Assembly: GCA_963978545.1 (NCBI GenBank)
Contig: OZ021722.1
Coordinates: 108,492,442-108,556,441, forward strand
Source: Linyphia triangularis
Taxonomy: Eukaryota; Arthropoda; Arachnida; Araneae; Linyphiidae
Direction of reading: 5' to 3'
Length of the DNA stretch: 64,000 bases
Positions within the stretch are counted from its first letter, which is position 1; each line of letters opens with the position of its first letter. Below are positions 9,501 to 63,385 of this stretch, in pieces. Made by a program: the position numbers and the translations under genes. Below the pieces are notes generated by a model. It was given only the letters and a program-made list of their open reading frames with translations, had not been told where the DNA came from and ran no database searches.

Positions 9501-11630
9501 AAAATCGAAGTTAATATAAAGGATATAAAAATAGATTTTTATGTCAATTAACTTTCGAGAAAGAGGTACATGAAATCTCTCAAATGAACATTTCTGGTAT
9601 ACAGGGTACCGAATACCTGTAACAGCCTAAAGTATTATTATGTCTTATAATTACAAGTTACATAAAACTCCAGTGGTGTGGTGTTACAAGTTCAGTTTCT
9701 TGTGGCTGTAGTTTGAGTGTATCTATGCATGCTTGAGATTCATCTTTAGAATCTTCTTTAGTTATCCTTCATAGCAAAACAACTACTAACCACAGTAACA
9801 GGTTCTGGTGGCCACAGAAGCGGAGAGATATCAGGGAGCTTTCTGATTTGGGAAAAAATCAGGGAAATGTCAGGGAATTTTTTTAAATTTCGTGAAAATC
9901 AGGGAAATTCTGTATTGTTTAAGGCATTTTCATCCATATTTTGGCGCTATTTACCCGGAGATTTGTGGTGGTAATCGTTAGAAGTTTAATGTTACGGAAT
10001 AATTTAAACTTTTTATTACCAGTAAAACTATTTAAAAAAAATTTGCATATTATCTCTTTAGCATACGTATGTTCTATTTGATCAGGGTGTCTAGACATCT
10101 GGAAAACCTAAGAAAATTGGGAAAAATTGAAAAAAAAGTTTTCCCGAAAATCAGGGAATTTTTTAGAATTCTGTCAGGGAAATCTGTGTATTATCAGGGA
10201 TTTTTTTTTCCTGAATTTTTTTGTATAATTGATAAATTCATAATCAAAGTGGCCACAAAACCTGGAAATCAGAGAAATGTCAGGAAACTTTTGGATTCTG
10301 AAAAAAATTCGGAAATTTAAAAAAAATTTATGAAAATGAGGGGAATTTTCTATTTTTGTTTTGAAGGTATGCTTCCTTGTTCATCCATTTTTTTTACTCC
10401 TTTCACCCGGAGAATCATGAAGGTAATCGTTAGAAGTGTAACTTGCAGAATAATTTTTACTTTTCATTACTGTCAAAATTATTTTTAGAAAATTGGCATA
10501 TGATCACTTAAGCATGCATGTTCTATTTGATCAGAGTGTCTACTCATCTGAAAAAATTGGGGAAATTTGAAAAAAGTTTGCCATAAAATGGGGAAATTTC
10601 TTAGAAATCTATCAGGAAAATCATGGAATTCAGGGTGGCTACAGAATCTGGAAATCAGAAATTTTCACTCTTCCTGAAAAATCAGGGAAATGTCGGGGAA
10701 TTACGTAAAATTTCTCTTTAATCAGGGAATTTTGAAATTTGCGAATTTCCCTATTTGCATTTCCCAAGCGGGTGCGGACATCTTATCTTATAACTTAGAA
10801 GCCTGGCCGTCGGTGCTTTATTGTTAAAAAAAAATCTTTAAACTTCAATCTGATTTTGCAAACATGATTATTTTTCTTTTTACCTTGCTTTTTTTATCAA
10901 CAGAATATATTAGAACCCTAATTATTTACATATTATTTCTGTTAGATTTTTAGTTATTCTATAACTTAACCCGGTCGTTTGCGCCTTATTGTTAAAAAAA
11001 ATCCTCCAAAATGTGACTGCACCCTTTTCAGACATGATTATTTTTCTTCTTGCCTTGCTTTTCTGATCAACAGAATATATTACAGCCCTAAATTCTTTAG
11101 TATTTCAAATTGATTCCATTAGATTTTTTTTGTTTTTATTAACCCTTTACAGCAATGTGTTATACAGAGTTCATCCTAGAAATAAAAAAGGGCAGGGTGC
11201 TATTTTCCAAAAAAAGGGCAATTCCTGTTTGCTTCATTTAATGTGTACTTTTGCAGTTTAAGATAAAATTTTTACTGTACAAAATTTTATTTCTATACAT
11301 CTGTGAGTATTAAAAAATTTTTAGAAGCTGTTTATTTCGGGTCTTTTCTTTCATACAATATATAGTTTATCTTTTGTCAACTTCAAAATCCAAAAGACAT
11401 AATTTTTTATGAAATATATGCTCATGCATGCACAAGTGTAATAAATATTTAGATTATGTTTTAAATTTATACTATAAGCAGGATGCAGCTTTTGACATAT
11501 ATTAAAGAAAATAACATTTTTATTTGTGTTATTTTTTTAATTAAAAAGAAAAGATTGTATAAGTTTTGCTTTTCCTTGAAGTTAGTAAATATGGATGTAG
11601 TTTGACAAACAATTCACAAACTTTGTGAAC

Positions 11631-14600: not shown

Positions 14601-17600
14601 TTTTATTTAAACCATTTTATAACTAAATTTGATGTAAGTTAAAAGTCATGATTGAATTTGAATACTACATATGACTGATGTAAAATAAATTGCTTCGTAC
14701 TTATTTATTTTCTTTATTTTGTCAAAAATTAATTCGAAGTAAGTTTTTTTTTTTTTTTTAATGTGACCTTTTATCAGTAATCATTGCATATACTTTCTCA
14801 ACCCAATAGCCTGTCAAAGAATCTGCTCGTTTCCTACAATACAAAGAAGATTTACGAAAGAAAGATGAAGAGATAGCCTTGTTGAAGGAAAAAGTAACCA
14901 AGTTAAAGGTAAATGTACCTTGCATTTTAAATGATGACATACAAGCAGAGGCTGAAATAAGCCTATTATAGCATGACGTTTTTAAAAAACCTTGAAAGGG
15001 GCTTGAAAAAAACCCTTTCATTTTCAAGTGCTCGAAAACCTTGAATTTTTTTTTAATGTGTTGGCGCACTGTTTAAAAATGACAGGAAAATGCATTTTCA
15101 ATTCAAGCTGGTTAGAAAAACTGGAACATAATTCAGGATTCCTAAGTGTTGGATCCGCATTTTGCACGATGTACTTTGTGTTGCCAAAAATTGCGGCACA
15201 GTATCAATAGGAAAGAAAGTGCCCTAAAAAGATTAGTTTCTATAAGAAGTTCGATGAGCATTGTTTGAACTATTTTTAATGATAAAAAATACTACGAAAG
15301 CAGATATTGTCCGCAACAATTAAATCGTCATCGATATCATCTCACACAAGCACGATGGAGGTACGTTGTAGTTTAAAACAAAGTTTTTGATGTTGAAATA
15401 CTATGGACATTGAAAATCATAGCTTTTATAAATCAAAAGAAAACACTGATAAATTATTTCGTTGCATGTTCGCTGCTGGCACGATTCGATCGTAATTTTC
15501 ATGTGGAGAAAAAAAAAATATGCTGTATATGGAATCCAGCCTTATCTTCAGAGTGTATTAGAAGACAATTTAATCACTGAGAATTTCGTACTGTTATTTG
15601 ACAAAAGTTTCAGTATGATGAAACCAAAAATAAATAAATCTTCACTTCCGAAATTGGAGTAATATGTAACTAACCGAGTGCTACCTACTTTACTTACGTT
15701 TTTAAGGGATATAGTACTGTAGCCTCTCGATGTATCGTTCTTGTTAGAAGACAAACAAAACTCCTGTTATATCGGGCAAAATGATAAAATGTAAAAATGA
15801 GAAATCAGAAAAATGGGAGACAAAGCAAAAGCGCAATATATTCAAATGCGCGATGTAACGATGCGTTACCGTACTGCTTCTGATAAACTTGGAAGATTTT
15901 TTTTTCTTCTATAGTAACTTAAAAATTTCATTCTGTTAAAACCTAAAAAATATTTTTTTGTATTTACTTGATTTAAACATGCACCGTTAGCTGAAATTTT
16001 TTTTTTTTTTTTTAATGTATATTTGTGTTGATACTGCATCTTTGAAAAGTGCTTGATAAGTCCTTGCATTTTTTTCTTCAAGTGTGCAAACCATGTATAA
16101 ATATTTACCAGAGTTCATCCTAGAAATGAAAACGGGCAGGGTGCTATTTTCCAAAAAAAGGGCACTTCCTGTTTACGAGGGCACTTTAATGGCAAATTGC
16201 AGAAATACGCTTTTTCTGCCACAATTTCAATATTGTTATACTTTTCTACCACGATAAATAATTTTCAATATTCTGAAGAAAAAATATATAATCAAAAACT
16301 CGTTCAGAAACTTAAAAGATATCAAAATACTGATAAAATGCTTCAGTCCTAATTCTGCTGGAATGAGACTGAGAAAATTATTAAAATTAAAGTGCAATAT
16401 ACACAGTAAAATTTTCATCAAATAGTAATTTTTATAAAATTACCAATTTATAATACTGTAAAATTAAGATAAGAATGTTTTAGTATAATGAAAATGTGTT
16501 AAGATAAGAACTTTTCTCTCTTTCAAAATTTTCTAAAGTTTGAATGAATCAACCTTAAACTTCATCTCTTAGTTTTGCTATTGTCAGATAGAGAATAGAG
16601 TTTCTCCAAATTTAACATTATTCATTGTGGGATATCACAAGGAGTATTACGACTAAAGAAATTGGACTATATCCTGAAATTTTTGCATTTTTTTATTTTC
16701 CAAATCGGATCAAATTTAGCGTCAAAACGGCGATTTTTTTGCTGTGCATTCCGCTATTATGTAAGCTATAATAGAAGTTTTATTTTTTTAAAAATCGGAA
16801 ATAATCTGGGATTTTGGTTGCATTCCTGTTATGTTTAATTTTAAATATGAAACGGATGTTTAGAAATTAATTGGTAGCAGGCAAATTACCAAAAACACCC
16901 CCTAAATTTAACAGGACATCGCGATTACGCGTGTCCAAACGGAAATATTCTTTTTAAATTCTTAGTGTAAACATTTGATAATTATAAACCTTTAACTAAG
17001 TTATTCAAGTCTTTCAAATTCCTTTCTTCACTATTTTGAAGGAGACATGGTAAAAATCCAGCGAAATACACTTAATCAAAACACGTACGAAATGGCCATC
17101 GGAGTTTACTAATGTGAACTTGGGAAATTGTAAGACGGCGCCCTACAATCCACCTACTAATGAAACACGTTATATAGACATATACTCAATGGTTTCAGTC
17201 CGATATATACGTTGCGCGTTGGAACATGAATGCGCATGCGCGACAGCCTATTTCAGTAGGGGTGATCCACATATTGCGTACTGTTGGGAGGGAAAAAAAT
17301 TAAAGTTTTTCGAATTCTTTCAAGATGAAATTTTTTCTGAAAAAAGGCAGGAAGGGCGCTATTTTTATAGAAATAGGGCAAGAAGGGCGCTATTTTTATA
17401 GAAAAAGGGCAGGCAGGGCGCGCCGCCCCTCGAAAAATGCTTAGGATGAACTCTGTATTTACATTGCATTTTTATTGCATACAAGAAAACTGTTTTACAG
17501 TTTCAGCAAGTCGTAACTTGAACTGCTTTTATTTTTCTTTATTTTAGCTATCCTTTAAATTTTTGTTTATTTAATTTGTTTGTTTTCTCTTTAATAATTT

Positions 17601-20600: not shown

Positions 20601-23600
20601 TTATTCATTTTGCAAACTTAACACTTTTTCTCTATTCTATTTTTTATTTTGCTTTAGTTACTACTTAATTAAGAGTGATTGTTAGTGTTTTTTCTGCCTT
20701 AATTTTTACTTAATAAAATTTACAAATGGCTTACTGGAATATACATAAAATTTTTTTTGATTTGATTTGAAAGTTTTCGGTGAAATTCAATAATTTTCTC
20801 CAAATTTAGCATTGTCTGTTATGTTTATGTTCAGCATCCACAGGGCGTTTAGCGTTGGTCCCTTAGTCCCTTAAAGTACCTTTTTTTTATTTTGGTCCCT
20901 TTTGTCCCCTTTTTTTAACATTTGGTCCCTTTAGTCCCTTTTTTTAAAAATATATTTGTACCACGTGACCAGCACGCGCCATTTCCCTTTTTTCCCTCTT
21001 TGTCGAACACAAGAGGGAACAAAAGCAGACCAGAAATCCCTGTCACGTTCAATTACGTTGAATTAGCGTTGATTGGTTGAATGCTGTTTACAGAACTGGT
21101 TTGGTTCTATATCGAATCGTTAAAGTCAACGGTCATGTAATCGTTCGGTAGCTCGAAGCTTCGTTTGGGAACTACAGATGCTAATTCCTCTACTGGAACG
21201 TCTGTATCGCCAATTGTGTTACACACATCTTCTCCATTACTTCTCAATTTATGTTCCAATAAAGAAAAGGAACTAAAGGCTGAACTTCTTTGGGCAATGA
21301 AATGTGTGATCTCTAACTATGCTCTTCATACCAATACGGACATTAAAGATTTATTTGGTGCAATGTTTGGCACTTCTAGTGTTCCTGAAGGTTTGTCTGC
21401 AACCAAAACTATGTATTTGATTACATAGGCACTGGGACCCTATTTCTATGAAAATGTAGTAAAAGATATAGCTGGCCCAGCGTATACTCTATGTTTTGAT
21501 GAAATAATGAATGAGTGTGGCAAGAAAGAGTTGCAAATTGCAATTCATTGTTGGTCGGAGACAAAAAACAAAATTGTCCAAAAGCACATTGAAACATTTT
21601 TTTTAGGCCATGCTACTGAAAAAGATATGTGAGCAAAACTGTCCCGAGATTAATTAACAAGAGTCTTTTGGCAGTTCGGGAAAAATCTTTAGTTAATATT
21701 GGGACATGCAGCTTACATAAAGTTCACAATGCCTTTCAAAAAGGTGTAGAAGCGATGGGTGATGAAGTGACGCAGCTAGTAATATCCATTTACTATTATT
21801 TTGATGGCTGGCCAGCAAGATGGGAGGATTATTGCAAGTTGCAAAAAGAATTGAATGTTAAAAGTCATCGATTTATCAAATATTCACCCTCTAGATGCCT
21901 GACTGTAGGGCCAGCTGTTGCAAGAATACTTGAACAGTGGCCAGTAGTCGTTAAATATTTTCTAAAATTTTTTCCTTCTCATGCCACATCAGCTTAACTA
22001 CAATCTAGTCAGTATCAAACAATTGCAAGACTCCTTAAATCTAGCATTAAGGCTGAATTAATTTTTGTTCTTGATACTACCAATTTTTTTTTCCAATTAT
22101 TTAAAAGATTTTTCAAAATGAGGAACCTATGGCTCATAAATTGTATGAGGAAGGAAATGATCTGCTGTTGCAGCTTAAAAGTAAAATATATGTAATTCCT
22201 GAAGATATGAGTGAGAAGGAAGTTGAAAAATTGCCATTAGGTGATATAAATTACAGCTTAGAGTTGAGTAATGAACTGGCAAAAATGAAAGACAAGGATG
22301 AGAAAAAATTCCATTTAGCAACTCAAAAGTTTTATATCGCAGGATATTCTTACCTCAAAGGGCAGTTAAAAATGCATGGTAGTTTACTGTCAGATTTGCT
22401 ATGTTTAGCGAATTAAAGCTTCAAATTGACTACCAGCGAGTCACAAATTATCGCTTTAGGGAAAGCTCTACCCTTCAACGTGGACATTTGCCGCCTGGTA
22501 GACGAATGAAGGGTTTTGAAATTTGAAAATATCGAATCGTTGAAAGAAAGTTCTATCGACCAGTATTGGCCTGCAATTTTTTCCATAAATAATGCATCTA
22601 ATGAAATCAAATTCCCAGTAGTTTCCAAAGTAGTGATGGCCATGTTAGCCTTGTCACATGACAATGCAGCAGTAGAACGTGGGTTTTTGGCATCTGGCAA
22701 TGTTTTGACTTCTGACAAAACTTCAATGACTGAATTGGGTTTAAATGCCGTCTAAATATCCTCTCAGGATTGAAAAAATTTGATAATAAGCCTTTCCTAG
22801 TGCCAACTATGAAGGAATTGCTTTTATTGGGTTCTAATGCACATAAAAGCTACAAAGATCACTTAGAGAATGTCAAGCGAATCAATGAGATGAAAGAAAA
22901 GGATGCAGAAGAAAGAATAAAATTGAAAGTTAGAAGTGAAGCAGCTTCAGAATTGAAAGAACTTAGCTCTAGTCTTATAGTTAAAAAAAAAAAAACGAAG
23001 AAGAGAAAAGGAAGAAAGCAGCTGACAAATTACTTAATGAAGCGACAAAAAGGCTAGAGAGTGCAATTAAATGAAAGAATTTCGAAGAGATGACTCTTGC
23101 CTAAGGAATGCTGCATGGTGTGTAAAGATTAAAATGTTCTGAAGCAGAAACTTCTAAAGAACTAACCTACAATTGTTAAACATTTTGGAAAGAAATTATA
23201 AGATATTTCTTCTTTTTTTTAAGAAACGGCCAAATATTTAAATAAAAAGTTTAAAACTTACAAAAAAAAAGGATAAATGCATCAAGCCTTTTTAAAACCA
23301 CAATGAAATTCTTAAAATAAATATTAGTAACCTAAAAGTACATTTGTACATTTTAATTAACACTACTTTATTATTTTGCAAGTTTTGTAATTATTATAAC
23401 ATCTTTTTTAACCTCAACCTAACTAGTTCAATAAGGAATCAAATGAAATGGATTCTTAAACCTTTTTCAATGATAAGTAACTGTCACTTTAAAATAAATG
23501 TGAAAATTATAATTTTAAGTTTACTAATATAATTTACATGTTTCAGCCTGTACATATTTTTATGTAGCTCTCTTCTTAGTTTGAATGAATAAGCACTTTT

Positions 23601-25468
23601 TGGTGTTAAATATAGGTTTTCTGCCGATCCTAAGAACTCTAGTGTTCAATCATGTGTTAAAATAATCCGATGCAAAGGTGAAATTTGCACCCCCAAAATT
23701 GTTATTTGTGCTCTGTCTGTTTACAATTTTAAAAATGTGGTAATCGTAATTTTCAGTGTTTTTTTAGTAATATACAGTCAATAATTAATTCTTTTCTTTG
23801 TAATGTGCACTCCAGATGAATGTTTGGAGTGCAAAGTTTGCGCTTGGACAAATAATTTTTAATTCAACCCCTTAAATTGTAGGTACTGAATACTAGTCAT
23901 TTTTTTCTATGCCATAAAAACAAATTTTGCTTAAAAGTCCCCTTTTTTTTTACTAGTCCCTTTTTTTAATATTTTTGGTTCCTTAGTCCCTTTTTTTGAA
24001 GTTCCAAGCTCCTAAATACCCCTGCATCCAATCAGACCACTTCATGTATTGCACTTTGTTTCGCTCTAAAACCGCGCATGCGCAGAGCTTGTTGATGGTA
24101 TTGATTGACAGTAAATAAATTGAATTTCAAACAGCTATACAATATATATAACGGCTATACAAAATATATCGGATAGACAATTATAATAATAGAGAAAAAT
24201 AAGGGGGACACATTAAAGTAACTTTTGATTTTATTCTGATGTAATAAAAATTTATCTTTGCCGTTCCGATAACTTTTTTTAATATCATTCAATTTAAATA
24301 AAAGCAACTTTTAATGAAATTTAAAAGTTGTTTTCGGCCGTTTCGATGTATTAAAGTTTTTATGTGCCAAGTTTCGTACCACTAGGTACAGAACTGCGGA
24401 TTTGTATTGGGTTCAGATGGAACTAAGAAAACAGGAACTCAGTCTTGTATATGGATATTTAACTAGACTTCTTAACTCAAGGATGAGAGTTTTCCTCCTT
24501 TTGGAGGATTTCCTCCTTTTTCGTTTTTATGTAACATTTTCCTTCTCTTTGTCCTTGTTTCGTGGATCCACATTTTTTTATCTGAACCAGTTTTTCTTGC
24601 AAAAAGTATACTTTTCCTCATGTCTAAACAAAAGATTTTCCCTCTTAGCTCCTCTTTCCTCCCAGATTACTTCAGAAACTCCTAATATTTGAAATGTAAT
24701 TATTATATAGTATGAGAAATTTCATTGTATCTAAAATTATTGAATCATCCTTCCTGCATATTTTTTTGTTGAATATTTGTGTAGTCCTTTTGCAAACTTT
24801 TTTAATGAATTTTTGGATTTCCTCCTTTTTGCTCTCTGATCACTCTCATCCCTGTATAACTAAACAACTGTTAAATAAGCAGTTTCTTTCATTTACTTAT
24901 TGTTTGTCTTCATATTTTTTTTCCTAACCTGTGAAGGCATTGGTCTTGCAATGATAAAATCCAATCAACCCAACCTGTGATTGATTCCACTTTTTAAACT
25001 ACTGTTTAACTTTTTGTATCAGCTGAACTTAAAGTTGAGATGTAATTTTCCTTCATGAAAAGTTTGTTTAATAATACTTTGTGTTGGATTATTTATTTTC
25101 CTGAATTTTGATTGGTCAACTGATATTTTCTGGGCATGTACTCTTCTTAGTATTATGCAAATATGTTTGCAAAGACATAGCTTGCATTACATTATGCAAA
25201 TATGTTGGTGAGAGAAGAAAAAGTTTCTTGTGAAACGCAGCAGAGGGTATCTGACTACCTTGGAGTTAGGAGTTTTTGATTATGTGTTAACTAAAATTAA
25301 AAAAAAAAATTTCAAGCCCTTGTCCTCAATTATTTTCCACTGCAATTTCTATTTTAGACTAAATAAATTATAGTCTCAATTTTTAATCTCATGAAATTAT
25401 ATTAACAACTAATGAAAATGTATGTATATTTCTAGGGAAATAAAAAACCAAGAACAGAGTCAAAATGA
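3385..25468 (+). CDS. GKAP1: G kinase-anchoring protein 1 (GKAP1), 11 coding exons
   Basis: Joining 3385-3585, 8164-8274, 8353-8430, 8833-8998, 9282-9335, 12858-12988, 14810-14908, 17896-17959, 18689-18759, 20337-20414 and 25436-25468 gives 361 codons plus TGA with every phase compatible. The product matches vertebrate GKAP1 (about 366 residues) in order. It has an N-terminal SRFAVLKLEDD, a lysine cluster (residues 52-60), a LAFG then WEEWKQKD block (68-104), DLQEAILLS with DYEE (105-130), FFDKIEEDAEKI (about 222-234), and a C-terminal coiled coil (about 248-351) with AEILVQID and ALEQERSKV. In mammals GKAP1 (GKAP42) is a Golgi-associated coiled-coil protein that binds cGMP-dependent kinase I alpha. 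The role here is inferred by orthology. The start is fixed by an in-frame TAA two codons upstream and an AAACAATGG context. Introns are 78 bp to about 5 kb and full of transposons. Confidence 0.93.
4030..4365. other. Intron 1 filler, no clear feature
   Basis: The stretch includes a poly-A/T run near 4124-4160. A short GC-richer piece near 4035-4095 resembles part of the SINE at 5822, but the match is too weak to call. Confidence 0.3.
4366..4830. repeat. Degenerate 33-bp CpG-rich tandem array (GKAP1 intron 1)
   Basis: About 14 eroded units recur at roughly 33-bp spacing. Examples start near 4379, 4412, 4445, 4478, 4511, 4546, 4586, 4619, 4669, 4701, 4735 and 4769. The common theme is AGATTTACG followed by GGTAATNGCCG-like text. 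CpG dinucleotides are much denser than in the flanking AT-rich intron. There is no open frame across it. Confidence 0.65.
4903..5678 (+). mobile_element. Helitron-like element with GC-rich terminal hairpin
   Basis: The 5' end reads A then TCTATATATTTAATAGG. The 3' end is very GC-rich, with GAGCG/GCGAG words and a perfect hairpin GGGGGC-AAA-GCCCCC, then TTG and T. This fits a non-autonomous Helitron inserted between A and T, but the last four bases are CTTG, not the usual CTRR, and the hairpin sits right at the end. Inside, the 17-bp word ACGTATGTAAACAAACC occurs twice, about 70 bp apart. No transposase or helicase remnant is seen. Confidence 0.45.
5822..5967 (-). mobile_element. tRNA-derived SINE (second type)
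   Basis: On the minus strand it begins GGCTCCGATAACCTTG, then has a box A-like TGTGGTTAGAG and a degenerate box B (GGTCGGATCC), followed by a tRNA-unrelated body ending near TGCCAGTCTGCGACAC. Box B is mutated and no CCA or full cloverleaf is evident, so this is a retroposon, not a working tRNA gene. Confidence 0.6.
5968..8163. other. Remainder of GKAP1 intron 1
   Basis: Very AT-rich sequence with poly-T/A runs. Apart from the exon 2 acceptor at its end (ttttcag), I see no repeat boundaries, RNA gene or coding segment. Confidence 0.45.
8164..8274 (+). CDS. GKAP1: GKAP1 coding exon 2
   Basis: Residues 68-104, phase 0 at both ends, between ttttcag and GAG|gtttgt. It contains LAFG and QKQWEEWKQKD, matching the LAF and WQEWRQRD blocks of vertebrate GKAP1. 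Confidence 0.93.
8353..8430 (+). CDS. GKAP1: GKAP1 coding exon 3
   Basis: Residues 105-130, between ttccag and GAT|gtaggt, phase 0. The DLQEAILLS and DYEEKKD segments match DLEKALLLS and EYEEHKK of the mammalian protein. The preceding intron is only 78 bp. Confidence 0.93.
8833..8998 (+). CDS. GKAP1: GKAP1 coding exon 4
   Basis: Residues 131-185 plus one base (phase 1 donor, GGAG|gtaaat). It encodes a lysine-rich basic stretch (NKKKKKNSQKKDK) and an acidic MSLDEFQSLDAAEID segment, comparable to the basic middle of vertebrate GKAP1. Confidence 0.9.
9282..9335 (+). CDS. GKAP1: GKAP1 coding exon 5 (candidate cassette, GC donor)
   Basis: 54 bp, phase 1 at both ends, between ggctacag and ATG|gcaagt. 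It adds KNFFNDQLKAISALLDD. The downstream GT (gttgat) would give a phase clash and a stop, so the in-frame solution is the GC donor. Because exon 4 also joins exon 6 in frame, this exon may be skippable, giving 343 residues. It has no obvious counterpart in the vertebrate protein. Confidence 0.7.
9336..9341 (+). promoter_or_regulatory. Non-canonical GC 5' splice site
   Basis: GCAAGT after ATG. Except for the C at +2 it matches the extended donor consensus, as is typical of functional GC-AG introns. The partner acceptor is at 12856-12857 (aaaatag). Confidence 0.65.
9375..9545 (+). repeat. Dispersed repeat family C copy
   Basis: It shares AGTTTCAGA...GATTGGATGGCAGCAAGT and a TTAATATAAAGGAT-type end with the copies at 44870 and, in reverse, 54740. 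The class is unknown; it may be the 3' part of a larger element. Confidence 0.55.
9803..10780 (+). repeat. Family D (CAGGG / TCAGGGAATTTT) copies in head-to-tail array
   Basis: Two roughly 440-bp units follow each other (GGTGGCCACAGAA at 9809 and GTGGCCACAAAACC near 10250), and a third partial unit begins with CAGGGTGGCTACAGAA at 10629. Each unit contains a TTTGATCAGGGTGTCTA-type core and many TCAGGGAATTT words. The related free element is at 26606. This looks like a CAGGG-terminal, hAT-like MITE that has multiplied in tandem inside GKAP1 intron 5. Confidence 0.6.
11165..11260 (+). repeat. Left-end fragment of the 16109 element family
   Basis: Starts CAGAGTTCATCCTAGAAAT and continues with GGGCAGGGTGCTATTTTCC, nearly identical to the left end of the element at 16109. 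No matching right end lies nearby, so it is truncated. Confidence 0.6.
11848..11965 (-). repeat. Family D right ends, two in tandem
   Basis: The text ...TCAGGGAATTTTG...GCCACCCTG and then ...CCTGAATTTTGTGGCCACCCTG gives two consecutive copies of the GTGGCCACCCTG terminus of family D. Strand is assigned by analogy only. Confidence 0.45.
12154..12490 (-). mobile_element. MITE family B with 8-bp target duplication
   Basis: 337 bp, with 13-bp imperfect termini CCCAGAAGCAGAA / CCCGAAAGCAGAA. It is flanked by CGAAGATG on both sides (12146-12153 and 12491-12498). A longer related copy (19728-20159) shows it is a mobile family. The 8-bp duplication suggests hAT or a similar superfamily; the transposase is not visible. 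Confidence 0.75.
12858..12988 (+). CDS. GKAP1: GKAP1 coding exon 6
   Basis: Completes residue 204 and encodes 205-247, from aaaatag to GAT|gtaagt, ending in phase 0. FFDKIEEDAEKI and KEQRQ align with FFNRLEDDVHKI and REKRREQ of vertebrate GKAP1. Confidence 0.92.
13500..14095. repeat. Diverged tandem repeat of about 130 bp (intron 6)
   Basis: A recurring block GAAATTTTCAACA...AGTAGTTTTGGCCTTCTAATTG occurs near 13505, 13646, 13772, 13902 and 14039. Each is followed by a T-rich TTTTTTAATTAAT segment and TTCTAATAGGGCTACAGCTC. Spacing is 126-141 bp and the units are clearly diverged. Confidence 0.7.
14810..14908 (+). CDS. GKAP1: GKAP1 coding exon 7
   Basis: Residues 248-280, phase 0, between acccaatag and AAG|gtaaat. 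It opens the coiled coil. RKKDEEIALLKEKVTKLK matches the ERKDAEIQKLKNVI heptads of the mammalian protein. Confidence 0.92.
14968..16085 (+). mobile_element. Decayed hAT-like element with CCTTGAAA words
   Basis: Both ends carry CTTGAAA / GTGCTTGA / CCTTG words in the same orientation (14985-15055 and 16040-16085). Between them are hAT-like coding remnants (next entry). Exact termini and target duplications could not be resolved. Confidence 0.5.
15070..15760 (+). pseudogene. hAT-like transposase remnant
   Basis: A first segment (about 15076-15210) reads GKCIFNSSWLEK then SAFCTMYF. This resembles the BED-type zinc finger start of hAT transposases (KFNxxWL ... FCTLC), with the second cysteine of the finger lost. 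A second segment in another frame (15462-15662) has NLITENFVLLFDKSFS, resembling the catalytic FDES region. A stop and frameshifts separate them, and the rest of the RNase H core and the C-terminal dimerisation region are missing. Assigned from motif resemblance only. Confidence 0.45.
16109..17455. mobile_element. Non-autonomous hAT-like element, 1.35 kb
   Basis: Termini CAGAGTTCATCCTA at 16109 and its inverse TAGGATGAACTCTG ending at 17455. TATTTAC flanks both sides exactly (16102-16108 and 17456-17462). Words of the type GGGCGCTATTTTTATAG repeat near the right end, and GGGCAGGGTGCTATTTTCC sits near the left end in the same orientation. No transposase segment is recognisable. It lies in GKAP1 intron 7. 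Confidence 0.7.
17896..17959 (+). CDS. GKAP1: GKAP1 coding exon 8
   Basis: Residues 281-301 plus one base (phase 1), between tttgcag and GAAA|gtaagt. The segment VKSRNKKLYGILESGE matches VKARNAQLLKMLQEGE of vertebrate GKAP1. Confidence 0.93.
18689..18759 (+). CDS. GKAP1: GKAP1 coding exon 9
   Basis: Residues 302-325, between attacag and CAG|gtaact, ending in phase 0. The split ATG codon is an internal methionine, not a start. MREKAEILVQID and KDELNEQ align with MKDKAEILLQVD and KNELTIQ. Confidence 0.94.
19007..20170 (+). repeat. Dispersed repeat family A copy interrupted by a family B MITE
   Basis: Family A runs from a CAATTAACCCATATGTA head through the CGTGCATGCGCAT core to GTTTCACCCC. It is interrupted at 19728-20159 by a family B element and resumes as ACACCCCTAG-TTT at 20161. 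This is intronic (GKAP1 intron 9). Confidence 0.75.
19728..20159 (+). mobile_element. Family B MITE nested in family A
   Basis: Starts CCCAAAGCAGAAAT and ends TTCTGCTTCTGGG, matching the 12154 element in reverse. The right flank CACACCCC is the intact family A target; the left flank CCCACCCC differs by one base within an expanded C run. It is about 95 bp longer than the 12154 copy, with extra internal sequence near 19835-19935. Confidence 0.7.
20337..20414 (+). CDS. GKAP1: GKAP1 coding exon 10
   Basis: Residues 326-351, phase 0, between attttcag and CAG|gtacgt. ALEQERSKV is identical to the mammalian block, and LQTELKKYQ matches LQAELAKYQ. This is the end of the coiled coil. Confidence 0.95.
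20842..24023 (+). mobile_element. hAT-like DNA transposon, 3.2 kb, with degenerate transposase
   Basis: Imperfect termini AGGGCGTTTAGCG / AGGGGTATTTAGG are flanked by GCATCCAC (20834-20841) and GCATCCAA (24024-24031), an 8-bp duplication with one mismatch. Both ends carry the words GGTCCCTTT, AGTCCCTTTTTTT and TTAGTCCC in the same orientation. A broken hAT-type transposase lies between. It sits in GKAP1 intron 10, in the same orientation as the gene. Confidence 0.8.
21165..23057 (+). pseudogene. Broken hAT-type transposase
   Basis: Coding fragments run in order through at least three frames: 21165-21428, continuing past an in-frame TAG to a TGA at 21630; then 21629-21997; 22129-22416; 22516-22755; 22770-23057. 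The CFDE motif (about 21495) followed by LQIAIHCW and FFLGHAT fits the catalytic core of hAT transposases. SHDNAAVERGF (about 22655-22690) is the conserved C-terminal hAT dimerisation signature. The tail is lysine-rich. There is no ATG-initiated frame at the start, and I see no clear zinc finger. At least two stops and two frameshifts make it inactive. Confidence 0.75.
24478..24854. mobile_element. MITE with CAAGGATGAGAGT / CAGGGATGAGAGT ends
   Basis: 377 bp with inverted termini of about 13 bp. The word TTTCCTCCTTTTT lies next to both ends in the same orientation (24490-24520 and 24817-24830). No clean 8-bp flank duplication was found. It is hAT-like by its ends. It lies in GKAP1 intron 10. 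Confidence 0.6.
25436..25468 (+). CDS. GKAP1: GKAP1 terminal coding exon 11
   Basis: Residues 352-361 (GNKKPRTESK) and TGA, after acceptor atttctag. The basic tail following KYQ-G parallels the GGRKGKRNSES tail of vertebrate GKAP1. The 3' UTR continues in the same exon. Confidence 0.88.
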   Translation, partial: GNKKPRTESK

Positions 25469-26605: not shown

Positions 26606-26974
26606 CAGAGTGGTCACAGAACCGGGAAAACCTGGAAATGTCAGGAAACTTTTTAAAATTTTATGAAAATCACGGAAATTTTGTTTAAGGCACATTCATC
26701 CATATTTTGGCGTTATTTACATGGAGATTTGTAGCGGTAAGCCATTAGAAGTTTAATGTTATGTAATAATTTTTATTTTTTTTACCATCAAAACTAATTT
26801 TTTAAAAATTGTATATTATCTCTTTAGCATACATGATCTATTTGATCAGGGTGTCTAGACATCTGGAAAACCTAAGAAAATTTGAGAAATTTGAAAAAAA
26901 GTTTATCCTAAAATCAGGGAATTTTTTAGAAATCTGTCAGGGAACTTTTTTTCTTGAATTTTGTGACTACCCTG
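26606..26974 (+). mobile_element. Family D MITE (CAGAGTGGTCACA / CAGGGTAGTCACA ends)
   Basis: 369 bp. It has inverted termini of about 16 bp, a GATCAGGGTGTCTAGACATC core, and repeated AATCAGGGAATTTT / TGTCAGGGAA words. Flanks (AAATGTAA vs CGTAAGAA) show no convincing duplication. Confidence 0.6.
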
Positions 26975-27412
26975 CGTAAGAATAAAAGGAAATAATTAAT
27001 TTCTTAAAAGGCAAGCCCTAATTTGTATCTAACATTCCAACTTAAAAATATTTATTGATAGTTGTGTTACAAGGGGCTAAGCTACATTTTTATACACAGA
27101 TATAGTCATGGATTTAAATTTAACTGGGTATGTTTCTATAGATAATACTGTGCTCAAAATTCTTTATATTTAAGATGGATGTCATTTATGAAACATTTTT
27201 TGCATTTAGTAGATTCACAAATTTAACTAACAATGTTCAATTTGTAGTTAATAGGTTCTATTATTTGGAATAAGCTCTATTTCAGTAACTGTTACCCTAC
27301 TATCATTAAAGTATGTAACTAAATAAACACTGTTCATCCATCCTATCAATAAGTTTTGTTGTAAAATGTTCATTTAAACTTTATGAGCGTGAGAATAGTA
27401 CAGAAAATAAAA

Positions 27413-29732: not shown

Positions 29733-29960
29733 CAGCGTTCCCACAGTCCTTGGAAAGTCCTTGCACTTAAAAAAAAAAAAAAAAAAAATTATGAAATTTT
29801 ATCCTTGAAAAAAGGATAAGGTCCTTGAAAGTCCTTCAATTTTTAAGTGACCACCGATAATCACCATTTTGTATTTTTATATCTAAAGTATGGTCCTTGA
29901 ATTTTCTAGAAAGGTCCTTGAATTTCCTAAAAATGGTCCTTGAATTTCTTAAAAAGCTTA
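29733..29960 (+). repeat. Truncated element with repeated GGTCCTTGAATTT words
   Basis: Begins CAGCGTTCCCACAGTCC, and AAGTCCTTG / GGTCCTTGAATTT recurs about six times in one orientation. The matching right terminus is absent. It resembles the 14968 element's CCTTGAA words. Confidence 0.5.
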
Positions 29961-30711: not shown

Positions 30712-31473
30712 TTACCAACCTCTATAACCAGGTCCCCATCCTCCAAGACCTTGTCCCCAGCCGCCATATCCAAGACCATGTCCCCATCCTCCAAGACCAT
30801 GTCCCCAGCCACCATATCCAAGACCATGGCCCCAGCCGCCATATCCTCCCAATGCGCCTAGTCCATGCCCCAAGCCAAGACCACCATATCCTCCGAGCCC
30901 TCCATGTACCCAGCCATTATATCCAAGGCCACCATATCCTCCAAGACTACCGTACACGCCTAATCCTCCGAGACTATGTCCCCATCCACCATGGCCAATC
31001 ATTCCAAGGAAGCCGGCAGGATGGACTGGTGATGCCAAGTAACTGCGGTATATTGGATAGTTTGTAACAGCTACTGGTGCGTGGTAGACACTCGGGAATG
31101 CCGCTACCCCATAGCCAACCGGGGATGGCACTGCCCCATAGCCAACCGGGGATGGTACTGCCCCATAGCCAACCGGGTATGGCACTGCCCCATAGCCACC
31201 TGGGTATGATGCTGCCCCATAGCTACCACCATACACGCCTCCGTTGGCTAACTGGATATCGTAATGATGGGCATCGACTCCATGGATCGAGCCCACTCCA
31301 CTATGCATGCCTCCATATCCGCCATGAGCAGCAATTAAAGGGGGATGACCCAATACGCCGCCATACCCACCGAGTCCGCCATAGCCGCCAGGAAATCCGC
31401 CCCAGATTTGCGAGGATGCCAAAGCAAAGTAGAGAGTGAAGAGGATTGCGATGAATGATCTATGGCAGTCCAT
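30712..31473 (-). CDS. Secreted glycine-rich structural or cuticle-like protein
   Basis: A single-exon frame of 253 residues. Residues 1-21 form a typical signal peptide (hydrophobic core FIAILFTLYFALA, cleavage near ASS-Q). The mature part is Gly/Tyr/Trp/His-rich. GGYGG and GGLGGYGG motifs (about 25-55) lead to PVGYGAVPSPVGYGA repeats (about 96-120), then a less repetitive YHAPVAVTNYPIYRSYLASP segment, then GYGGWGHGLGGWGHGL repeats to the C-terminus. There are almost no charged residues, and the only cysteine is in the signal peptide. This composition fits arthropod cuticle or other extracellular matrix proteins; a glycine-rich antimicrobial peptide is less likely at this length. I do not recognise a named family. 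The start has an AGTCATGG context, and a TATA box lies upstream. Codon and GC content are far above the AT-rich surroundings. Confidence 0.85.
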   Translation of the reverse strand: MDCHRSFIAILFTLYFALASSQIWGGFPGGYGGLGGYGGVLGHPPLIAAHGGYGGMHSGVGSIHGVDAHHYDIQLANGGVYGGSYGAASYPGGYGAVPYPVGYGAVPSPVGYGAVPSPVGYGVAAFPSVYHAPVAVTNYPIYRSYLASPVHPAGFLGMIGHGGWGHSLGGLGVYGSLGGYGGLGYNGWVHGGLGGYGGLGLGHGLGALGGYGGWGHGLGYGGWGHGLGGWGHGLGYGGWGQGLGGWGPGYRGW

Positions 31474-31557
31474 GACTGTTTGCTTTCCAATTGCAGGGCA
31501 GGCTGATTAAAACCAGGAGTTTTTGGAGTGTGTGCTCGACTCCAGGATGACTGTGGA

Positions 31558-41660: not shown

Positions 41661-43860
41661 TCTCTATATACATAAGGCAAAGCCCTCACTCACTCACTAA
41701 TTCTCCCACTTCCCACATGTTCACAGTACAAATATCAACAATGGTAAACATAGAAAAAGTTAGCTATTCCGATCTCGATTAACCCACTTTAAGGGGTCGA
41801 AAAGGGGTTAAACGTTCCAAATAAGGGATATTCGAATGTCCTACTTCCCATTTCGTCACAACTCTGAAAACTGGTGCAAGTATCAACAAAGACAAACGTA
41901 GAAAAAGTAAGCTATTCCGATCTCTATTAACCCACTTTAAGAGGTGGAAAAGGGGTTAAACGTTCCAAACGAGGAATATTCGAATGTACCACTTTCCATA
42001 TGGTCACAACTCGAAAAATTGGTACAAATGTCAACAATGGTAAACATAGAAAAAGTAATCTATTCTGATCTCGATTAACCCACTTTAAGAGGTCAAAAAG
42101 GGGTTAAACATTCCAAACGAGGGATATTCGAATGTCTTACATCCCCTACTGTAATAACTCTGAAAACTGGTGCGAATATCAATAAAGACAAACGTAGAAA
42201 AAGTAATCTATTCCGATTTCGATTAACCCACTTTAAGGGGTGTAAAAAGGGTTAAACGTTCCAAACGAGGAATATTCGAATGTCCCACTTCCGACATGGT
42301 CACAATTTTGAAAATTGGTACTAATACCAACAATGGTAAAAATAGAAAAAGCATGCTATTCCGATCTCGATTAAACCATTTTAAAGGGTGGAAAGGGGGT
42401 TAAACGTTCCACACGAGGTGTATTTGAATGTCTCATTTCCCACAAGGTCACTTCTCTCAAAATTGGTGCAAATGAAAACAAAGCCAAACATAGAAAAGTA
42501 ATCTATTCCGATCTCGATTAACCCACTTTAAGGGCTGCAAAAGGGGTTAAACGTTCCAAACGAGGAATATTCGAATGTCCCACTTCCGACATGGTCACAA
42601 TTTTGAAAATTGGTACTAATACCAACAATGGTAAAAATAGAAAAAGCATGCTATTCCGATCTCGATTAAACCATTTTAAAGGGTGGAAAGGGGGTTAAAC
42701 GTTCCACACGAGGTGTATTTGAATGTCTCATTTCCCACAAGGTCACTTCTCTCAAAATTGGTGCAAATGAAAACAAAGCCAAACATAGAAAAGTAATCTA
42801 TTCCGATCTCGATTAACCCACTTTAAGGGCTGCAAAAGGGGTTAAACGTTCCAAACGAGGAATATTCGAATGTCCCACTTCCGACATGGTCACAATTTTG
42901 AAAATTGGTACTAATACCAACAATGGTAAACATAGAAAAAGCATGCTATTCCGATATCGATTAACCCACTTTAAGGGGTGGAAAATTGGTTAAACAAAAC
43001 AAAACTTGAATATCCCACTTCCCATATGGTCACAACTACGAAAACTAGTGCGAATATCAATAAAGACAAAAGTAGAAAAAGTAAGCTAATCCGATCTCGA
43101 TAAACCCACTTTATAAGGGGTGGAAAAGGCGTTAAACGTTCCACACGAGGAATATTCGAATGTCCCACTTCCCATATGGTCACAACTCTAAAAATTGGTA
43201 CAAAAGTCAACAAAGACAAACATAGAAAATGTAAGCCATTTCCCATTTGGTCACAACTCTGAAAATTGGTACAAATGTCAAAAAAGATAAACGTAAAAAA
43301 AGTAAGCTGTTCCGTTCTCGATTAACCAACTTTAAGGGGTCGAAAAATGGGTTAAATGTTCCAAACGAGGGATATCCGAATGTTCCTCTTTCAATGTAGT
43401 CATAATTCTGATATTTGGTGCAAATGTTAAAAGGGCAAATGTAAAAAAAATAAGTTATTCCAATATTGATTAACGAATTTTTAAGGGATGAAAAGTCGAC
43501 ACAACATTGAAGCTATACGAGGATTATCTAAATGTCTCAATTCCAATACAGCTACTACTTTGAAATTTAGAAATACGAGCAAACACAATAAACTATTGCA
43601 CTCTCGATTACGTAATTAAAAAAGGTCCGAAGGGAGTTAAACGTTCTAAAGGAGGGATATTCAAATGTCTCTTTCCAATATACTATTCACAATTTTAAAT
43701 TTTGTTAAAAATGTCAACAAATTAAAGTTCCTATTTTGCTAAATCAATTAGTCGGGATCGAAATGGGAGCAAACGTCTGAAGTGTAGAATATATGAATGT
43801 CTTTTGATCGCTAAAATGCTAATGGTAAAATTTCGTAGCGCAGCACGGGTATTCAGCTAG
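41661..43860 (+). mobile_element. Non-autonomous Helitron carrying a 148-bp satellite array
   Basis: The 5' end is A then TCTCTATATACATAAGG, followed by AAAGCCCTCACTCACTCACT. The 3' end is GCGCAGCACGGGTATTCAGC TAG then T. A 5' TC, 3' CTAG and insertion between A and T are the Helitron hallmarks. No Rep/helicase remnant. An inverted relative with matching ends is at 55006. Nearly all of the interior is the tandem array described next. Confidence 0.82.
41740..43480 (+). repeat. 148-bp tandem array inside the Helitron
   Basis: The marker TAGAAAAAG recurs at 41751, 41899, 42047, 42195, 42343 and 42491, exactly 148 bp apart. It then follows a 295-bp dimer period (42343, 42638, 42933). Units contain CCGATCTCGATTAACCCACT, GGGGTTAAACGTTCC and AATATTCGAATGTCCCACTT. 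The blocks 42251-42545 and 42546-42840 are essentially identical, a recent dimer duplication; distal units decay toward 43800. Confidence 0.9.
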
Positions 43861-55005: not shown

Positions 55006-57032
55006 CTAGCTGAATACCCATGCTGCGCTACGAAATTTTACCATTAGCATTTTAGAGATCAAAAGACATTCACGTATTCTACATTTCAGACGTTTGCACC
55101 CATTTCGATCCCGACAAATTGATTTATCAAAATAGAAACTTTCCTTTGTTGACAATTTTAACGAAATTTATAATTGTGAATACTATATTGGAAAGAGGCA
55201 TTTGAATATCCTTCGTTTAGAACGTTTAATTCCCTTCGGACCCTTTTAATTACGTAATCGAGATTGAAAGATTTTATTGTGTTTATGTTTGCTCTTTGTT
55301 CTAAATTTCGAAGTAGTAGCTGTATTGGAATTGAGACATTAAAATAATCCTCGTATAGTTTCAATGTTGCGTCGACTTTTCATCCCTTAAAAATTCATTA
55401 ATCGATATTTGAATAACTTATTTTTTTTTTTAAATTTGTCCTTTTAACATTTGCACCAAATATCAGAATTATGACTACATTGGAAGAGGAACATTCGGAT
55501 ATCCCTCGTTTGGAACATTTAACACCTTTTCGACTCCATAAAGTAGGTTAATCGAGAACGGAATAGCTTACTTTTTCTATGTTTATCTTTTTTGACATTT
55601 GTACAAATTTTCAAAGTTGTGACAAAATGGGAAGTGGGACATTCGAATATCTCTCTTTTGGAACGTTTAACGCCTTTTCCAACCCTTAAGTGGGTTAATC
55701 GAGATCGGAATGGCTTACTTTTCTATGTTTATCTTGATTGGCATTCATACCAATTTTAAGAATTGCGACGAAATGGGAAATAGAATGTTCGAATATCCCT
55801 CGTTTGGAACGTTTAACCCCTTTTCGACCCCTAAGAGTGGATTAACCGAGATCGGAATAGCTTGCTTATTCTATGTTTATTTTTGTTAACATTTGCCCCA
55901 ATTTTCAGAATTGTGACTATATGGGGAGTGGGATATTTGAGTTTGGAACGTTTAACTCCTTTTCCACCCCTTAAAGTGTCAAGCTCGGAATAGCTTAATT
56001 TTTCTATGTCTGTCTTTGTTGACATTTGTGCCTATTTTCAGAGTTGTGACCAAATGGGAAGTGGTACATTCGAATATCCCTCCTTTGGAACGTTTAACCC
56101 CTTTTCCACCCCTTAAAATGGGTTAACCTAGGTCGGAATAGAATGCTCTTTCTATTTTTACCATTGTTGATATTTGTGCTGATTTTCAGAGTTGTGACCA
56201 AACGGCAAGTGGGATATTCGAATGTCCTCCGTTTGGAACGTTTAACCCCTTTTCGACACCTTAAAGTGGGTTAATTGAGATCGGAGTAGCTTACTTTTTC
56301 TATTTTTACCATTGTTGATATTTGTGCCGATTTTCAGAGTTGTGACCAAATGGGAAGTGGGATATTCGAATGTACCCCGTTTGGAACGTTTAACCCTTTT
56401 TCGACCCCTTAAAATGGGTTAATCGAGATCGGAGTAGCTTACTTTTTCTATTTTTTCCATTGTTGATATTTGTGCCGATTTTCAGAGTTGTGACCAAATG
56501 GGAAGTGGAATATTCGAATGTCCCTCGTTTGGAACGTTTAACCCCTTTTCGACCCCTTAAAGTGGGTTAATCGAGATCGGAGTAGTTTACTTTTTCTATT
56601 TTTACCATTGTTGATATTTGTGCCGATTTTCAGAGTTGTGACCAAATGGGAAGTGGGATATTCGAATGTCCCCCGTTTGGAACGTTTAACCCTTTTTCGA
56701 CCCCTTAAAATGGGTTAATCGAGATCGGAGTAGTTTACTTTTTCTATTTCTACCATTGTTGATATTTGTGCCGATTTTCAGAGTTGTGACCAAATGGGAA
56801 ATGGAATATTCGAATGTCCCTCGTTTGGAACGTTTAACCCCTTTTCGACCCCTTAAAGTGGGTTAATCGAGATCGGAATAGCTTACTTTTTCTATTTTTA
56901 CCATTGTTGATATTTGTGCCGATTTTCAGAATTTTGACTAAGTGGGAAGTGGGAGAATTAGTGATGAGTGAGTGAGTGAGTGAGTGAATGAGGGAGTGAG
57001 TGAGTGAGGGCTTTGCCTTATATATAGAGAGA
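55006..57032 (-). mobile_element. Second satellite-carrying Helitron, opposite orientation
   Basis: On the minus strand it starts A then TCTCTCTATATATAAGGC, AAAGCCCTCACTCACTCACT. It ends GTAGCGCAGCATGGGTATTC then AGCTAG and T. Ends and interior match the 41661 element. The array is 148 bp in period (for example TTACTTTTTC at 56291 and 56439). Proximal units are more uniform than the decayed units toward 55020. Confidence 0.82.
55460..56940 (-). repeat. 148-bp tandem array of the second Helitron
   Basis: Units contain GGAACGTTTAACCCCTTTTC, GGGTTAATCGAGATCGG and CAGAGTTGTGACCAAATGGG on the plus strand. The five units at 56150-56900 are nearly identical; those at 55460-56000 diverge and two are deleted in part. 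Confidence 0.88.
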
Positions 57033-62109: not shown

Positions 62110-62707
62110 TATATTGATGAGTTAATTCTGGACTTTCCTTAGAGGATAGTTATCAAACAAAGTGACCTAATATCCATAATCTACATAAAATTTTCCATAA
62201 GTTATAATTATGTCTGAAAAGCGAATTTCTATCGTCAGAAAGTCTGGTTGATGGTTTAAAAATGGTCGCTGGGAATAAGTGTCGTCGATTTAGAATAGGG
62301 ATGTGCATGCAGGAAATTGACTTCCAAATCCTATCAAGAGTAGATGATTTTGTTTTAAAAATGGGACTAGTCTTGTTTCCAAGGCAATAGACAACTCTAG
62401 ACACGTTGGCTCGTGATAGACAGACTTAATCAGATTGTTCCCGAGAGACAAAATAAAAGTTTAATAACGAAAAATATTTAAGCACTTGTAAAAAGAATTG
62501 TTGATTCGGACCGTTAAGTGGGTTCAACGAATTACTGGACACTATTCCGCAAAGTTCTCGAAAGGTTTAATTTTTAATGAGTTGAAGAGTTGGAAATATA
62601 AAGTACAGTGCTCAGTCTTGAAATTGAGGAACGTTTGAGGTTTTAAACAATGAATCAGTGTTGTGATTTATCTTAGACTGGTTTTAAGGAACAATAATCA
62701 ACTAGCA
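62110..62707. other. Intergenic, no recognised feature
   Basis: No gene or repeat boundaries seen. The 83-codon minus-strand frame (62153-62404) is unrecognised. Confidence 0.35.
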
Positions 62708-63083
62708 CATTTCAGAATCACTCTAGAACCTTGTATAACCTTGTACATTTCAGAATCACTCTAGAACCTTGTATAAGCTTGTACATTTCAGAATCACTCT
62801 AGAACCTTGTACATTTCAGAATCACTCTAGAACCTTGTATAAGCTTGTACATTTCAGAATCACTCTAGAACCTTGTATAAGCTTGTACATTTCAGAATCA
62901 CTCTAGAACCTTGTATAAGCTTGTACATTTCAGAATCACTCTAGAACCTTGTATAAGCTTGTACATTTCAGAATCACTCTAGAACCTTGTATAACCTTGT
63001 ACATTTCAGAATCACTCTAGGACCTTGTATAACCTTGTACATTTCAGAATCACTCTAGGACCTTGTATAACCTTGTACATTTC
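62708..63083. repeat. 38-bp minisatellite, ten units
   Basis: TTTCAGAATCACTCTAGAAC then CTTGTATAAGCTTGTACA repeats ten times with one short 28-bp unit. Variants (TATAACC vs TATAAGC, TAGAACC vs TAGGACC) are ordered: the GGACC type sits only at the right end. Confidence 0.92.
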
Positions 63084-63385
63084 TACCTGATGTATACACA
63101 TGCAAATATTCGTGCTTAAGAAGTTACAATGGCCTTGTTAGCCATGTATTTTGATTGTGGCTTTGTCTGTCCTCGTTGGTCTCTGTTAAGGGGCTCGTTT
63201 AATAGGCCATGAATGAGCTCCAACAAAATGTCAAATGTCTAGAATAATGGTGCCCACTACGCATCAAATCCGCCGAGTTCCCAATGCACTCACTTGATAT
63301 GGATATGAAGAGTGAGCGACCAGTGGCTTAGGTCTAACCAAATTTACAATTAGAAAACATATTTGTATGTATTTAGCATTGAATT
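63084..63385. other. Intergenic, no recognised feature
   Basis: Unique-looking sequence, no gene or repeat. Confidence 0.35.

Follow-up and report, generated by a model that had tools for sequence, protein, structure and literature searches.

Why should short words near the two ends of a transposon read in the same direction when the tips themselves are inverted? A 64,000-nucleotide stretch of the genome of the spider Linyphia triangularis (contig OZ021722.1, positions 108,492,442 to 108,556,441 of the forward strand; hereafter the window) raises this question: a sequence-only reading had proposed that several hAT-like families in it share such a layout by design and not by chance. In hAT transposons, an N-terminal zinc finger of the transposase binds subterminal repeats, and cutting takes place at the tips. 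We followed the elements of the window into other genomic copies and found that a shared design holds up: the words stand in the consensus sequences of families C, D and E, and an excess of direct over inverted sharing between ends is present in all six two-ended families, narrowly in family H. We consider it probable that the words are subterminal repeats read by the transposase zinc finger, and that their single polarity makes the two ends of an element differ.

The family C element occupies 20841-24024 on the plus strand, between tips that begin with CAGGGCGTTTAG and end with CTAAATACCCCTG, and is flanked by a 6-bp target duplication, CATCCA. Its left word array (20857-20945) holds six copies of GTCCC (20858, 20866, 20895, 20904, 20925 and 20934) and its right array (23936-23996) holds three (23937, 23956 and 23986), all on the plus strand; a fourth word in the right array of this copy reads GTTCC. 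The reverse word, GGGAC, is absent from both 20841-20980 and 23900-24024 of the window copy. Our search space was the 1.35-Gb assembly (369 contigs), which yielded 294 and 386 first-look candidates for the two ends; we scored the best 40 of each, giving 39 places besides the window copy per end, at 91-96% identity. We fetched 29 of the 39 per end and counted word strand with the window copy omitted. GTCCC stood 166:0 (plus to minus) in the 29 left ends and 101:0 in the 29 right ends. The genomic consensus begins with CAGGGCGTTTAGC and ends with GCTAAACACCCTG, has 13 inverted matches within its last 15 bases, and reaches a support of at least 90% along most of the length of the arrays. The target duplication was 6 bp in all five two-ended loci, namely the window and L061-L064, with L061-L063 counting as one shared flank. 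These last three loci contain a 1.87-kb derivative of C, which in L061 retains about 300 bp of the left and about 470 bp of the right part with unrelated filler between them; because all three have the same flank, they were probably duplicated within a larger repeat.

Family D is represented in the window by a non-autonomous element of about 380 bp (24478-24856, plus strand), other copies of which are flanked by a 6-bp duplication. Its word, TTTCCTCC, occurs on the plus strand at 24491 and 24509 on the left, at 24818 on the right and internally at 24655; one reversed core, GGAGGA, lies at 24503. The genome gave 2855 first-look candidates, from which 39 other places were scored and 15 fetched; the window copy was left out of the counts. 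Across the 15 copies the strand of TTTCCTCC was 30:0 at the left and 14:0 at the right. Support for the array consensus is again at least 90% along most of its length, and 12 inverted matches fall within the last 15 bases of the consensus. An exact 6-bp target duplication was found in 11 of the 15 copies and an 8-bp one in a further copy; it was missing in L084 and not parsed in L086 and L091. Immediately inward of its tip, the D left end has a quasi-palindrome, TCCTCCTTTTGGAGGA, in the window copy as in L080-L094. D sequences recur near C right ends: in four of the 29 other C right-end loci (L045, L048, L055 and L036) a D right end lies upstream of the matched 300 bp, at a distance of about 1.4-1.5 kb, and a whole D copy, with a 6-bp duplication, is present in L039, nearer to the C right end than in those four.

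Family E, non-autonomous as well and about 375 bp long, is present at 26606-26976 on the plus strand, and other copies show a 5-bp duplication. Its words, TCAGGRAA, lie at 26641 on the left and at 26914 and 26937 on the right, none of them reversed; the exact word TCAGGGAATTTT is found in this element at the right end only, at 26914. From 3856 first-look candidates we scored 39 other places and fetched 14 copies, in which the strand of TCAGGGAA, counted only within the tips and with the window copy omitted, was 30:0 at the left and 27:1 at the right. Consensus support at the outermost words is about 60-90%, below that of the C and D arrays, and the consensus has 13 inverted matches within its last 15 bases. 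The target duplication measured 5 bp in 7 of the 14 copies, 6 bp in one and 4 bp in L071, with none in L066, L067, L072, L075 and L079. In L069 one E copy is nested in another, with AATTT duplicated, and the same sequence runs uninterrupted in other copies. Further E-family copies, partly rearranged, fill 9790-10800 of the window on the plus strand and contain TCAGGGAA seven times, never reversed. A 214-bp internally deleted E copy at 1262-1475 of L068 has its own 5-bp duplication, TATTC, and keeps the word arrays of both ends; it is close to a minimal mobile unit. Because this copy and the C derivative of L061 both keep their arrays, the arrays lie within what suffices for movement. At about 380 bp, the D and E elements are too short to encode a transposase.

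Among the genomic copies of C, D and E we saw neither equal frequencies of the two word orientations nor slippage specific to individual copies, the two outcomes that would have spoken against a shared layout. Adjacent word pairs in C lie 8-9 bp apart and the number of words varies among E copies, as might be expected if the words had arisen recently by slippage in the window copies alone. Their presence outside the window copies, in 29 left and 29 right ends of C, in 15 copies of D and in 14 of E, contradicts such an origin. Given the consensus support along the C, D and E arrays, we ruled out copy-private slippage for these families, and as an account of the words it deserves next to no credence.

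Short hAT terminal inverted repeats take the form CAGRG..CYCTG. The tips of the elements studied here are of this type, hAT-style inverted repeats being found in C, D, E and B, and the proposal that the terminal bases are inverted was borne out, together with target duplications, in C, D, E, B, G2 and H (the last three families are described below). Duplication length differs among the families: 5 bp in E and G2, 6 bp in C and D, 7 bp in B (one copy) and 8 bp in H. The classical 8-bp hAT duplication is not the rule in C, D or E. We searched 326,833 bases for inverted tips flanked by exact duplications of 5-9 bp, using the reversed sequence as a control, and obtained 28 matches against 0 in the control. 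Most of these lie within loci that had been fetched for their C, D or E copies; an earlier scan of the window restricted to 8-bp duplications had returned B as its sole convincing match. The ends are thus genuine, having inverted tips plus target duplications. Repbase groups named hAT5 and hAT6 for their 5- and 6-bp target duplications are described in the part of PMC12730594 used here, and by duplication length alone E and G2 resemble the former and C and D the latter.

Family C also encodes a recognizable protein. A broken transposase remnant extends in several frames over 21141-23054 on the plus strand, and its segment at 22510-22752 matches the hAT dimerisation domain Dimer_Tnp_hAT (PF05699) with an E-value of 2.9e-4 and 21.0 bits, just below the curated cut-off of 21.4. 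A homology search with a single 125-aa piece gave no match. When the remnant was read through as a 603-aa query with X at stops, seven relatives were recovered, the best of which, P0001, is 44% identical over 99% of the query. PF05699 scores above the cut-off in P0004 and P0007, just below it in P0001 and P0003, and not at all in P0002. By eye, an N-terminal, zinc-finger-like CxxC..H..H motif is present in five of the seven aligned relatives, and the remaining two are without that region. A sequence search found no solved structure. An AlphaFold2 model of P0001 (mean pLDDT 70.4, pTM 0.59) gave 12 fold matches with E-values of 0.001 or less, every one a chain of the Hermes transposase, the best at 1.1e-10. 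C therefore encodes a broken hAT transposase, the nearest full-length relative of which is predicted to fold like Hermes. The label hAT-like thus holds for C by protein and fold, and for the remaining families by tips and duplications only.

The other elements named in the sequence-only reading, those at 16109, 14968 and 29733, were more varied; counts for them rest on the window plus fetched loci and not on genome-wide copies. Family B (16109-17455, plus strand) has perfect 13-bp inverted tips, CAGAGTTCATCCT, with 14 inverted matches within the last 15 bases of the window copy, and a 7-bp duplication, TATTTAC. A degenerate word, GGGYGCTATTTT, covers both ends on the plus strand (16139, 17354 and 17385). 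The exact word GGGCGCTATTTT is confined to the right end (17354 and 17385), and the left end has a one-base variant, GGGTGCTATTTT, at 16139. A second B left-end fragment at 11165-11230 on the plus strand carries GGGTGCTATTTT in the same orientation as at 16139, and a second B right end in L010 has GGGCGCTATTTT 2:0. The frame at 17054-17398, the only long frame examined in the 16109 element, has no Pfam match; of the two elements proposed to carry transposase remnants, one was confirmed, C, by its dimerisation match. The family G left end at 29733-29960 (plus strand), which begins with CAGCGTTCCCAC, has GTNCTTG words in one direction, 6:0. No matching right tip was found within the window, so that the claim of one-way words stood for this array and that of words at both ends had no second end to be judged on.

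A degenerate element with CTTGAA words (14972-16095, plus strand) has unclear tips and words facing both ways. The word GTCCTTGAA had been assigned to it together with the 29733 array; in the window it occurs only at 29821-29936 and is absent from the 14968 element. Same-way words at both ends were consequently found in C, in D with one reversed core, in E, and in the 16109 element with its left one-base variant, and not in the 14968 element. Two families that were not among our queries turned up in fetched loci. G2, related to the 29733 array, occupies 630-1033 of L069 with a 5-bp duplication, TAACA; in G2-type ends AAGNAC was counted 8:0 in four left and 21:6 in six right ends. H, known like B from one full copy, lies at 281-1056 of L019 with an 8-bp duplication, GATAAGCA, and has AAGTGG 2:0 at the left and 2:0 at the right.

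We next asked whether chance or strand composition could produce such words, since T-rich ends might create apparent direct repeats; the plus strand is indeed T-rich at both ends of C and D (skew 0.29 to 0.46). We counted 8-mers common to both ends, dropping the last 15 bases, and compared them with 500 dinucleotide-preserving shuffles for C, D, E, B, the 14968 element and the 29733 array; G2 and H were left unshuffled. C shared 36 direct and 0 inverted 8-mers, and none of the 500 shuffles reached 36; for E (25 direct, 1 inverted) the direct value was likewise reached in 0 of 500. The 29733 array, cut in two and so not representing two proven ends, gave 15 direct and 1 inverted with 0 of 500 shuffles. 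Taken alone, the remaining cases are more favorable to composition at this word length: the direct value was reached in 2 of 500 shuffles for B (5 direct, 0 inverted), in 15 for D (6 direct, 3 inverted) and in 35 for the 14968 element (4 direct, 2 inverted). Skews at the ends of E, G2, H and B are small, between -0.14 and 0.11, which argues against composition there.

We also compared the own ends of C, D, E, G2, H and B with mismatched ends, again dropping the last 15 bases. Summed over the six families, an element's own two ends have 84 8-mers in common in direct and 8 in inverted orientation; for 30 mismatched left/right pairs the figures are 32 and 12. Direct exceeds inverted sharing in 6 of 6 families, narrowly in H (2:0) and less cleanly in D (6:3) and G2 (10:4). 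The longest direct stretch between ends measures 17, 17, 16, 10, 8 and 10 bp in C, D, E, G2, H and B, and the longest inverted stretch 7, 9, 8, 9, 7 and 8 bp, the margin in G2 and H being one base. For C and E, the shuffles together with the mismatched end pairs rule out chance and composition, and we judge this explanation very improbable for the words as a whole.

These observations are consistent with the following mechanism. The elements would be cut-and-paste hAT transposons, in part of the 5- and 6-bp duplication groups. Their subterminal words would be recognised by the N-terminal zinc finger of each family's own transposase, and the short inverted tips would be held and cut by the catalytic domain. 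Since all words of an element share one polarity, those on the left face its interior and those on the right face away from it; seen from its own tip, each end thus shows the sites in the polarity opposite to that of the other end. This opposite polarity may let a multimeric transposase build a complex of left plus right ends and not one of left-left or right-right. We infer, then, that the words are bound by transposase and that polarity sets end identity. Binding of the two ends in non-symmetric fashion, which the sequence-only reading had suggested, is plausible by analogy, with a precedent in Hermes, and is hence not new as a principle. For the RNA-level role of the words suggested alongside it we found nothing in support, and no direct test was made.

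In the parts of PMC10368747 drawn on here, the left repeats of Hermes, a well-studied hAT of the housefly, are all antisense (STR2-STR7) and the right ones all sense (STR1-STR5) when numbering starts at each tip; the same work found little activity in elements with two left ends and none in those with two right ends. Hermes thus resembles the spider families in having short repeats near both ends, with one polarity if our reading of the numbering frame is right. It differs in its 8-bp target site (PMC10368747), against 6 bp in C and D and 5 bp in E, and in its repeat, AAG(T/C), which forms a quasi-palindrome of STR1 and STR2 near the left tip (PMC10368747); among C, D and E we noticed a quasi-palindrome only in D.

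Several observations weigh against the proposed mechanism. The 6-bp core TCCTCC of D stands 30:10 at the left ends of the 15 copies (14:0 at the right), the reversed cores being present because the left end carries TCCTCCTTTTGGAGGA, and inverted sharing between D ends is likewise above chance, with 5 of 500 shuffles reaching it. Six of the 27 AAGNAC words in G2-type right ends are reversed, AAGT in H is 3:0 at the left but 3:2 at the right, and CTTGAA in the 14968 element lies on the plus strand at 14991, 15002 and 15040 and in reverse at 15023, 15102 and 16077. On the protein side, there was no Pfam BED match among the C transposase relatives; the N-terminus of the P0001 model is weak, with pLDDT below 50 at 1-11, 13-30, 46-49 and 68-149; and its TM-scores against Hermes are moderate, at 0.40-0.44 by query length. 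Among known systems, the ends of Ac lean opposite ways (ACGG 7:5 at the 5' and 1:6 at the 3' end), and, according to the Kat1 paper, the repeat polarity of Kat1 differs between its two ends. For Hermes, the right-right structure showed no zinc finger bound to the right-end repeats, and changes to the first three repeats at one end failed to rescue an element with two left ends (both in the cited part of PMC10368747). Finally, the single polarity of the Hermes repeats is itself something we infer, the frame being taken from the statement on the alignment of LE-STR1 with RE-STR1 and not from the sequence.

The words could also be transposase sites whose polarity is accidental, one array having been copied from end to end in the same direction by repair or template switching. 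C, D and E each have a direct stretch of 16-17 bp that is identical between their ends, as copying would leave, and the word number differs among E copies. On the other hand, the lean is shared by six families whose words differ, and the layout of Hermes is comparable; six families plus Hermes make a single accident unlikely, though a common mutational route could repeat. We regard copying as the less probable account, and as the one with most weight after that of polarity-defined ends. A different role would be the sensing of replication, in which one-way words let a strand mark act on both ends so that one daughter copy is competent, comparable to the chromatid selectivity of Ac/Ds. One-way words would carry a signal of this kind to both ends. 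CpG is absent from the word arrays of C, D and E, which excludes its methylation as the strand mark, and we consider replication sensing quite improbable.

How far might polarity-defined ends extend beyond this spider? The ends of Tol2 lean one way (ACTT 8:2 at the left, 7:3 at the right), a lean like that seen here and less strict, as it is in Tgf2, whose left 50 bp have ACTT at 3:3 (PMC4890040). Mutating the repeats lowers Tol2 excision, as stated in the part of PMC10368747 used here. In Ac, multiple AAACGG words in the terminal 200 bp bind transposase (PMC3260210, in part). In its repeated subterminal words Ac resembles the spider elements; by the ACGG counts given above it is, unlike them, not one-way. 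In Herves, according to the consulted part of PMC3143072, the motif CG/AATTCAT near both ends is critical and sufficient for transposase binding, four copies of the end motif are enough for binding, and the tips are bound unequally; the likeness to our families lies in one motif near both ends, irrespective of its orientation.

Compared with the layout described for Hermes, the one seen here is stricter and spans several families. It is recurrent and not a universal rule of hATs, because Ac leans the opposite way and the Kat1 repeats differ in polarity between ends. In the open-licence literature we found no paper that gives one-way repeats as a general hAT rule. That selection has repeatedly favored the one-way layout across much of the hAT superfamily (the 5- and 6-bp groups, Hermes and Tol2), with polarity coding left versus right and Ac-type elements using a different code, is a tentative extension that we lean against accepting for now.

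Other sequences accompany these elements. A fragment at 2850-2960 of L009 carries AAGTCCCTTTTTT and AAGTCCCTAAAAGTC adjoining E sequence and is possibly a further family with GTCCC words. In the window, two tandem arrays with a 148-bp period (41728-42497 and 56000-56769) are mutually inverted, their arms 83% complementary, and a tandem repeat with a 38-bp period occupies 62658-63121. On the minus strand, a 264-codon open frame at 30715-31506 runs over an internally repetitive stretch and has no Pfam match.

The families described here combine one-way words with short ends and, in D and E, with first-look candidate places in the thousands; they provide a natural comparison set for the mechanical question of why hATs need two ends that differ. 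Should polarity indeed mark end identity, inversion of a single array would be expected to disrupt synapsis predictably, and polarity would offer a simple rule for orienting and pairing short hAT ends in annotation.
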